NCBI GenBank assembly: GCA_033439295.1
Contig: JAVTLE010000008.1
Coordinates: 1,736,001-1,800,000 of the forward strand
From: Deuterostichococcus epilithicus
Lineage: Eukaryota; Chlorophyta; Trebouxiophyceae; Prasiolales; Stichococcaceae
DNA: 64,000 bases
Direction: 5' to 3'
Below, in pieces: positions 15,501 through 62,127 of this stretch; the first letter of the stretch is position 1, and every line of letters starts with the position of its first letter. The notes beneath the pieces are model-generated. The model searched no databases, was not told where the DNA came from, and was given only the letters and a program-made list of their open reading frames with translations. A program made the translations under genes and the position numbers.

Positions 15501-18500
15501 GCAGACAGCAAGGTGCAGCCTGGGCAAGCTTGCAAATGATCAGCTGGGCATGCCTACTAGTCTCAGCTGTCTGCTTCATGTGACAACAGGCGGCGCTCGG
15601 CAAGTCAAGGCGCTGATCAGACCCCACGCTGAAGCTGGACATATTTGACTGAAGTGTCTCGCAGCTGACACTCCTGGACCGGATGCAAGGGACGGTGAGT
15701 TTGCTTCTGCGTCTGCTGCGCTGCCCGAGCAGGCACCACTCTGATGCAGCGCTGACACCCTGCATGCTCGTTTTCAATGAGTTTCCATCTCCAGGCACGC
15801 AACCGGACCTTGCCCATGGCGGCCAGGGCCGCTGCCTCGGCCTGCTCGTGCTGCTCCTTGAGCAGGTCGTCCCAGAAGGTGCGGCTGCTGGGCAGCGGCG
15901 CCGAGCCGCTGTCGGCTGGCGCCACCGCATCGTCTGCAGCGCCTGCTGCGCCCTCGTCCACGGCTGCGGCAGCCAGCCAGCTAAAGCTTAACAGCTTGCT
16001 AGGTATCTGCATCTGCTCGCTGGGTCCACAGTGGCATGCCGGCAAGGCTCTTGGGGACCTCGTGCATGTCTCCAGGCGAATGCGACAAGGCAAAGCGCAT
16101 GAAGTACATAGTTTGAGTCTGCAGTCTCGCAGTGATATGGTCGACAGCTTATAATAAAATCCAGTGAAAGGGGGAGGGCATATACCGGCAGGCTCCTCTT
16201 CGGCCTCCTCGTAATCAAACTCGGCGACCTTGAAGGCGCGCATGAAGTCCGACTGCGGCGCCTCTTCCGCATCGCCAGCCTCCTGCAGCAGGGTTGAGTT
16301 TGATGCCACCTGCCAGGTACCTGGAGCTTTGCGGCAGACACTTCATCGGCGTTTGGCATGTCCAGATAGGTATGCACTTGACAAGCTCGAGTGCCTCCTG
16401 CAAATGTGTCTGGGTGCCTGCTGGGGTTGCGCGCCTTGAAACACCGACCCCTCAGTGAGGACGGCTTCAACACGGGCCGTCCGACTAGGGGCTAAAAAGT
16501 GAGCAAGATCACGGGGACGCACTGTGCCCTTCTCCAGGCCAAAGCGGTCGAGCAGTGCCTCGATGGCGGCGTCGTCGTACACGATGCGCCGGCTGTCGCC
16601 GCCAAGCCGCCCGGCAGCCGCCTCGCGCTCCGACAGGCGCGCCGCCTGCTGCGTGGTGGCGGCGCCGGCATCTGGTTTGCCGCCCTCCGCGGCTCCATCG
16701 CCTGCGCCTGGAGCCGGAGCGAGGGATTGGCACGCCGGAGATGCTTGCTCTGCTGTTTCGCATGTGGTTGCGTCGCTAGGACACACCCGGCACGGTTTGA
16801 CTGTGCTGCCCCGCCGCCTGCCTCCAACTGGACATGGCTGGCAGCAGCTGAAACAGTGGCGGTCCTGCTATCGTCGCTCGCAACCTTCACAGCGGGGAAA
16901 TTCAGCGAGAACTCGGCTGTCATGCCCCCTCTCAGAGCTAATGACCAGTGGCAGAGGCCCTGCAATGGCGCTGTGATGCTCGAAACCTTGCCACCCCTGC
17001 AGCCTGCAAAATTTCCTCCACCGCCCTTGGGCATGCACTATGCACAGCGCACACACGACTCTTGACGCCGTGTCTGACCGTGACTTGGCATACACCGGCA
17101 GCGCACATGTACCGGCGTCCCCAAACAAGCGGCGGGTGGCGGACCACCAAGTCTTCAGAGACTCGTTGCCACAGAGCATGGTGCAGCAGCTTGGGACTCC
17201 AACGCTGTGCTGACCCTCAAACCAGCCAGTCTGGCCTCAAGAGACGAAACAGGAGCACTCACCGGCGTCCTCCTCGAACAGGCGGCGCGCGCCGTACTGC
17301 AGGATGACGTCCAAATCGCTTTGCTTGCCGCCGCCGGAGGCGGGCCGCTTGTCGTCCAGCGACGAGAACACCACGTGGTTGATCACCAGCTTGCCCTTGG
17401 CCTTGTCCACCATGTACTCCTCCACCGTCGACCGCGCCACGAGTCTATGTGGAGAAGGAAGGAGTCAAGATGGGTGGATTGTCACATGCTATTTGGTTTG
17501 TCGAGCTCAGTTTGCTGTCCTTGGCCGTGTCCACCAAGTATCCCTCCACCATGGAGCGCACCACCACTTTGCACCAGGAACACATGATGCAGGGAACCGA
17601 GCGCCATGCAGCCATTGCGGCACCTGCACTATCACAGTGCTGCTGAGTGGCCATCCAGGCGAGCGGCACGGTGGTTGCGCATGGTGCTGAAATGGACAGG
17701 CCCGGCCCCGCGAGGCGGAAACCGAAGTGGAGGAGGTACATGGTGCCTCCAGCTGCATCCGAGTGCACGCTGCAGCTGGGGGATATTGCCTGGCATCGTG
17801 TCTCTGAGTGCCGTGCAATGGCGTCACCTGGCGGCCAGGGCCGCACCTGTAGATCATGACGGGGCGTGTCTGACCCAGCCGGTGAGCGCGTGCCAGCGCC
17901 TGCGCATTGAGCACAGAGGTTTGGCCTCCAACATGAACACCTCGTCAGCGACAAATCCTATGCCCAGCAGCGCGCAGGTTGCAAGGCGCCCTGAGGCGCT
18001 GCTGCGTGCTGCCACTCAGCGTGACTGGAGGAGAACACAGCAAAACAGTAACGGAACAGCAGCGGCGGGCGGCCCGCCTGCAGGTCGTTGTGCGGGTTCC
18101 AGTCGCTGTCGAAGATGAACACAGTGTCCGCGGTGGCCAGGTTGATGCCCTGCCCGCCGGCGCGCGTGGACAGCAGGAACACGTCCTCCTTCGCGCCCGG
18201 CGCATTGAACGCCTCAATGCGCTTCTGCCGGTCCTGGCTCGCTGCGTACATGATGCGCACACGAGTCTTGGGCCTGCTTGTGAACTGTGAGCCTGAAGCG
18301 TATGTCACGACCGGCAGGACCGCATCGGTGAGAGGTCTGACTCTCTGCGTGCACTCACAGAACAGGCGAATTCAACCTCTGCACACTGGGGAGCATGCAA
18401 ACCGGGTTCTGACTGCGGCGCAGCCTGCTGGCGGTGCTTGCAGCCAGTGTCTCTGGGTTCGAGAAGCCATGCTGCAAGCACACATGTGAAGCCGGAAAGG

Positions 18501-62127: not shown

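Follow-up and report, generated by a model that had tools for sequence, protein, structure and literature searches.

Intron length is usually credited to mobile elements and small indels. An initial annotation of the 64-kb window analysed here (the whole stretch of 64,000 nucleotides from Deuterostichococcus epilithicus, with composition and gene content that also suggest a green alga) instead drew attention to diverged partial copies of exon edges lying within the adjacent introns of several unrelated genes, and proposed that this genome gains, or recently gained, introns by short tandem duplication. This raises the question of whether such copies stand out against chance and, if so, whether they mark the birth of introns or a process acting upon introns already in place.

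Exon-edge copies among the introns of the window

Gene models were obtained ab initio with an HMM gene finder trained on the window itself, whose consensus has GTG(C)G donors, (C/T)GCAG acceptors and a median intron of 233 bp; a curated set of 99 introns forms the basis of the exon-edge counts. Each exon edge was compared with its own intron and then with length-matched stretches of other introns, thereby keeping real composition, with matches scored by free local alignment (cut-off of at least 32) or by alignment anchored at the splice junction (at least 36). In free alignment, 8 of 99 introns contain a match to the start of their downstream exon as against 0.38 expected from other introns (6 as against 0.05 at a cut-off of at least 40), and 3 of 99 contain one to the end of their upstream exon as against 0.3. 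The anchored test likewise returns 8/99 matches on the acceptor side and 3/99 on the donor side, each with 0.25 expected. Relative to other introns, acceptor-side matches are thus enriched approximately 20- to 30-fold and donor-side matches 10- to 12-fold, and an earlier run on 114 uncurated introns agrees with the curated result. These comparisons, in which real other introns stand in for the shuffled introns suggested initially, uphold the original observation that introns contain copies of their flanking exon edges.

The controls behave differently from the exon edges. At a cut-off of at least 32, antisense comparisons match in one of 99 introns on the acceptor side and none of 99 on the donor side (0.52 and 0.30 expected), exon parts beyond 80 bases in none and one, respectively (0.57 and 0.45 expected, with 33 and 37 of the 99 exons too short to supply a query), exon starts against the downstream intron in 1 of 32, and introns against themselves in 0 of 93 (0.55 expected). 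On the strength of the other-intron, antisense and mid-exon controls, chance or composition was rejected as the source of the matches. At a looser cut-off of at least 28, three controls stand at about twice expectation, with 5 antisense matches (2.1 expected), 4 mid-exon matches (1.8 expected) and 4 intron-self matches (2.0 expected); hence, only strong scores are trusted.

On this basis, firm copies are present in 10 introns of 7 genes, eight on the acceptor side and two on the donor side, such that about one intron in ten in the window bears a worn copy of the edge of a neighbouring exon. They are distributed over the CHD remodeller, arginine deiminase and VPS54 genes (two introns each) and the LAMMER kinase, HISN6, PP2C and ZIP genes (one each). 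The eight firm acceptor cases are precisely the eight junction-anchored matches. The free-alignment set of eight lacks the LAMMER copy, which appears in both a gene-blind repeat scan and the anchored test, and intron 43491-43698, with a free score of 32, was not counted on account of its antisense score of 34. The third donor-side match in both tests is an ambiguous pair in the CHD gene, considered below. In the gene-blind scan, 8 of the 11 repeats listed at lags of 60-160 are exon-edge pairs, this ambiguous pair included, and three are others; the VPS54-b, HISN6 and CHD-bA copies fall below its threshold.

The CHD gene, in which Pfam recognizes SNF2-rel_dom and Helicase_C, contributes copies in two introns on the reverse strand. 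The first ~58 bases of the exon at 17263..17444 recur as CHD-a at 17508..17568 in intron 17445-17846, at a lag of 124 and with 81% identity, the junction AG having become AA. The exon at 21149..21365, whose acceptor might by the reading frame lie 4 bases upstream, is the source of CHD-bA at 21437..21480 in intron 21366-21780 (lag 115, 73% identity, anchored score 46, free score only 32). A tentative second copy of the same exon, CHD-bB (21568..21611), was found by eye 131 bases upstream of CHD-bA; it is weak, with an anchored score of 12 and an intron-self score of 26, which is not above chance.

Further acceptor-side copies occur on the forward strand in the LAMMER gene (Pfam Pkinase), where the exon at 31208..31327 is echoed at 31089..31120 in intron 30905-31207 (lag 108, AG to AA); in the arginine deiminase gene (Pfam ADI), where the exon at 34179..34397 (ALNYELAPG...) has the copy ADI-3 at 34045..34100 in intron 33911-34178 (lag 134, with CC at the position of the junction AG); and twice in the VPS54 gene (Pfam Vps54_N). 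The first VPS54 source is the exon at 41856..41990 (DVVEVHLLAEIS...), copied as VPS54-a at 41732..41789 in intron 41515-41855 (lag 115, AG to GG), and the second the exon at 44562..44746, copied as VPS54-b at 44434..44500 in intron 44228-44561 (lag 117, AG to TG). The reverse-strand HISN6 gene (Pfam Aminotran_1_2) has its exon at 50062..50215 and the copy at 50282..50338 in intron 50216-50518 (lag 122, AG to CG). In the forward-strand PP2C gene (Pfam PP2C), the exon at 53692..53960, the frame of which is preserved with either of two acceptors (53692, 53707), has its copy at 53547..53631 at a lag of 100, with the junction AG kept if 53692 is the acceptor.

The two donor-side copies reproduce the end of an exon downstream of it. 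The deiminase exon at 36187..36351 (+), curated by hand and with its end at 36351 confirmed, is the source of ADI-5 at 36414..36467 (left end approximate) in intron 36352-36705, 116 bases away and with the GT kept (GTGCAC). The end and donor side of the ZIP exon at 61515..61690 (-; Pfam Zip) recur at 61403..61480 in intron 61227-61514, 85 bases away, with GT changed to GA.

The splice junctions of the CHD-a, LAMMER and HISN6 introns are crossed by alignments with solved homologues (CHD4, CLK2 and a solved histidinol-phosphate aminotransferase, respectively) with zero extra residues, which places these three copies outside the protein. The junctions of the remaining copy-bearing introns are gene-finder predictions. 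The ambiguous CHD pair (23214..23324, -; lag 78) lies within a single open reading frame (22841-23392) that runs through a called 273-bp intron and both copies; it may accordingly be an in-frame repeat within an exon, the site being perhaps exonic or an intron that can be retained. Rfam and tRNA scans of the window found nothing. A search for the core of one protein, CHD, gave no matches in viral contigs, and 109 pattern matches, none of them a relative, in genome contigs. As a separate observation, the LAMMER intron opens with a GC donor (GCGAGT, 30905-30910, +).

Spacing, extent and decay of the copies

The initial annotation gave the spacing as mostly 80-135 bp, and direct repeats are indeed present at the named sites beside splice junctions, with lags of ~78-135 bp. 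On the acceptor side, the distance from copy to acceptor is 100-134 bp (mean 117, SD 10), the copy being upstream, in host introns of 268-415 bp, a spacing tighter than a uniform distribution over 60-200 would give (p = 1.3e-4). A direct copy spans or abuts the splice junction in all 10 introns, with CHD-a, ADI-3 and HISN6 beginning at the junction rather than spanning it. Located by unanchored alignment, the onset of similarity relative to the junction is +4 in CHD-a, -13 in CHD-bA, -11 in CHD-bB, -11 in LAMMER, +2 in ADI-3, -9 in VPS54-a, -10 in VPS54-b, -1 in HISN6 and -46 in PP2C. Hence, five of the nine copies reach 9-13 bases into the intron and PP2C reaches 46, and similarity ends 22-58 bases into the exon except in the weak CHD-bB (+6). 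Of the 100-base PP2C unit, the part between -46 and +40 is similar, and in ZIP similarity covers 78 of an 85-base unit at 74% identity.

Introns with copies have a median length of 337.5 bp (n=10) as against 234.5 bp in those without (n=88; p = 9e-5). This difference of ~100 bp is close to one unit and fits the growth of existing introns. The idea that most introns harbour further, unrecognized decayed copies was not sustained, as under lag-matched controls only the acceptor lag of 100-120 stood out (exon part 9.81 versus 8.45, p 0.001; p 0.02 with the intron part; uncorrected over 36 bins), which gives a hint of decayed copies at that lag.

Exon and copy are 70-82% identical over the compared edge, with short ungapped cores of up to 83% (88% in the ambiguous CHD pair). 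No copy exceeds 82% over the whole edge, and thus the suggestion that the process was recent finds no support. Under an even spread of identities up to 100%, such a ceiling would have p 1e-4 to 3e-4 across 11 copies; the process may once have been stronger, or else assembly may have collapsed young tandem copies that were nearly identical. The youngest-looking duplication among the best 20 of 47 repeat families is of another kind, namely an in-frame 33-base tandem repeat of 94% identity in the predicted last exon of the deiminase gene (36924-36989, +), which encodes ETLGPAASAAL twice.

Differences between exon and copy fall almost evenly over the codon positions in the nine acceptor copies (33/147, 31/149 and 43/148), suggesting that any coding use of the copies was at most short-lived; 12 of 17 indels have lengths not divisible by three. 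Seven of the nine acceptor copies have lost the inner junction AG (AA, GG, AA, CC, GG, TG, CG), which is kept in CHD-bB and PP2C. With the CHD-b acceptor 4 bases upstream, as the reading frame suggests, CHD-bA keeps its AG too and the count falls to six; with 53707 as the PP2C acceptor, the PP2C AG is lost and the count rises to eight. A rate of 0.21 changes per base would damage ~3.4 of nine. As the binomial probability of six or more is 0.08 and that of seven or more 0.018, the excess of damage, and with it selection against the inner splice site, is borderline. In flies, selection against spurious 3' splice signals has been reported (PMC10946897).

Proposed duplication across existing junctions and its alternatives

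The reading that we favour, with about an even chance of being correct, is that old short tandem duplications across existing splice junctions lengthened introns and created none. Segments of ~85-135 bp straddling a junction, comprising on the acceptor side ~65 bases of intron tail and ~50 bases of exon, would have been duplicated in place, plausibly through the repair of staggered breaks or nicks. Two junctions would result, of which the outer restores the old mRNA and the inner adds exon and intron sequence. Because splicing at the inner junction alters the protein, selection would keep the outer one, and the inner piece of exon would fall into the intron and decay, each event adding one unit of intron length. 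Duplication followed by use of the outer site would account for the anchoring of the copies at junctions, their direction and the one unit of extra length. Against this, the narrow spacing is left unaccounted for. Further, the outer acceptor, taken as the one in use, is weak (at or below the 10th percentile) in four of eight introns (CHD-a, CHD-b, HISN6 and PP2C), those of CHD-a and HISN6 being nonetheless confirmed by homologues.

The part of the initial proposal that stands is therefore short local duplication at exon edges, whereas intron gain does not, given a spacing far below intron length. Work by Hellsten (2011) and by Gao and Lynch (2009) is reportedly cited in connection with intron gain by tandem duplication. 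In the model of an exonic AGGT-containing segment duplicated to yield an intron, as reviewed in PMC3443670, the new intron is as long as the duplicated unit; the lags of 100-134 in introns of 268-415 bp contradict this in eight of eight acceptor cases, and only 2 of the 99 modelled introns are 85 bp or shorter. The initial annotation held that two cases fit this model. ZIP (85 bp) and CHD 23214 (78 bp) do have AGGT in each of their two copies, as does the donor side of the deiminase case, and a good donor (GTGTGC, 71st percentile) lies past the ZIP copy. However, the donors implied by the model are weak, with GTCGTG of ZIP and GTCGCC of CHD at the 3rd and 7th percentile of the window's donors, next to the ZIP copy there is a donor of ordinary strength (GTGAGC, 56th percentile), and the CHD site is perhaps not an intron, one frame running through it. 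A weak donor is not proof of disuse, the used deiminase donor GTACAG itself ranking at the 4th percentile. Taken together, intron gain appears very unlikely as the source of the copies.

A more substantial rival, albeit one we regard as rather unlikely, is that only the exon edge (~0 to +55, with at most ~13 intron bases) was copied, for example through capture of nearby DNA during repair, and placed ~65 bases ahead of the acceptor. As this reading would have it, eight of nine acceptor cases show an onset of similarity no further out than -13 and +4 and an end by +58, and repair-mediated local duplication including splice sites has been published for vertebrates (PMC2671141). The intron tails also speak in its favour. 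In a simulation conditioned on how well each exon part is kept, neutral tandem duplication predicts an anchored tail similarity of 228 over nine cases, whereas 71 is observed (0 of 4000 draws as low) and acceptor-matched unrelated tails total 27. By free local alignment the tails score 159.5, as against 168.6 for unrelated sequence (P 0.74) and a tandem prediction of 291. A harsher prior with eight cases narrows the gap to 62 versus 120 expected (P 0.012). Rejection of the neutral tandem model by the anchored measure comes from CHD-a (P 0.003) and HISN6 (P 0.008), where similarity does not go past the exon edge, the other seven cases not rejecting it, with VPS54-a also doing so by free alignment (P 0.015). 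Compared with random intron positions the tails do show similarity (p 0.002), but the stricter acceptor-matched controls, which are relied on here, give p 0.15, 0.01 and 0.11 with 0, 6 and 10 junction bases omitted. Additionally, the tail preceding the exon has no match upstream in its own intron in the eight cases tested (p 0.24 to 0.97), and intron-intron duplications of this age, which a simple model makes detectable at 71-87%, are seen in 0 of 93 introns.

If tails decayed 1.5 times faster than copies, the deficit would have P 0.04, and decay twice as fast closes the gap; such faster decay would also account for the missing intron-intron duplications. Either the tails changed faster, perhaps under pressure to inactivate the inner splice unit, or no more than the exon edge was copied. 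Restricted capture is at odds with ZIP and PP2C, where similarity extends across nearly the whole spacing and the duplicated unit, tail included, is near-complete (tails elsewhere being weak or absent). Nor is it evident why captured pieces should start at a splice junction. Capture can also yield inverted copies, and no clear ones occur, the antisense matches noted above being close to expectation. It is the nearly complete units of ZIP and PP2C, and the consideration that random capture would not begin at splice sites, that lead us to prefer tandem duplication across the junction over copying of the edge alone. A cDNA origin, with the end of the upstream exon preceding the copy, was not supported, as the upstream flanks bear no clear resemblance to that exon end (3 of 9 cases reach an uncorrected p<=0.05 when anchored, 0 of 9 by local alignment). 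An unlikely further reading is that introns in this lineage grew through a past episode of copying that had a preferred spacing of ~117 bp and was tied to junctions, its stops at the exon edge being frequent enough to hint that splicing itself, and not blind duplication of DNA, was involved.

It is also conceivable that selection maintains the copies for some function, whether as alternative exons, as decoys or as regulators of splicing. Conservation is higher in the exon parts than in the intron tails, the acceptors of the CHD-b copies score slightly higher than the used one if the latter is the frame-keeping acceptor, and the PP2C copy acceptor (53592) stands at the 61st percentile as against the 2nd or 10th for the used one (53692). 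Given this higher-scoring acceptor, the PP2C copy may sometimes be used. As a general account function is highly improbable, for the change is nearly even over codon positions, most indels break the frame, and the CHD-a, HISN6 and LAMMER proteins contain no inserted residues; coding constraint on both copies, of the type found in mutually exclusive or alternative exons, was not detected. Least probable is an assembly or haplotype artefact or chance similarity. The window does contain five ambiguous bases, but the copies, at 70-82% over the edge, are not near-identical, and the fold excess over other introns on both sides speaks against chance.

Relation to known duplications in genes

In the potato RdRp gene, a tandem duplication across an intron/exon boundary gave rise to a new intron, the donor of which was recruited from exonic sequence (PMC4974935). 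As described there, it resembles the events proposed here in that a boundary-crossing duplication copies the 3' splice signals together with the exon start. It differs in that a new intron arose and the copies differ at only ten nucleotides (PMC4974935), whereas in the window existing introns of seven genes appear to have absorbed copies that are old. Intron gain by tandem duplication, in its published form, shares short tandem duplication inside genes with consequences for splice sites, but needs an exonic unit equal to the intron, which the acceptor cases of the window lack. Short paired duplications, or 'doublets', were reportedly treated by Thomas (2004). The repair-mediated duplications described in PMC2671141 are alike in being short local copies that include partial exon or intron segments and splice sites. 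However, copies within 50 bp of each other are set aside in that description and one exon copy is inverted, whereas those of the window are on the same strand, anchored at splice junctions and spaced by ~117. Small tandem duplications at staggered breaks, demonstrated in mouse and human cells (PMC8355091), are a plausible source. In the literature covered, consisting of titles and abstract openings with few subscription papers, no account was encountered of recurrent exon-edge copies lengthening introns.

If junction-straddling duplications are common in this genome, past events could be read from its introns, and what it costs to have a splice site duplicated could be studied directly. The copies also serve as a warning that exon-like sequence within an intron need not mean intron gain.

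Repeated introns of the introner type were sought by an all-against-all blastn comparison of the window's 99 introns, which returned one pair over 46 bases at E<=1e-3 and did not bear out this possibility. The pair consists of introns 7515-7740 (+) and 51008-51254 (-), which belong to different genes and have the 46-base stretch in common at 76% identity. Separately, a long alanine- and acid-rich low-complexity exon with many internal repeats (46937-48511, +) is joined to VPS54 by the gene finder.
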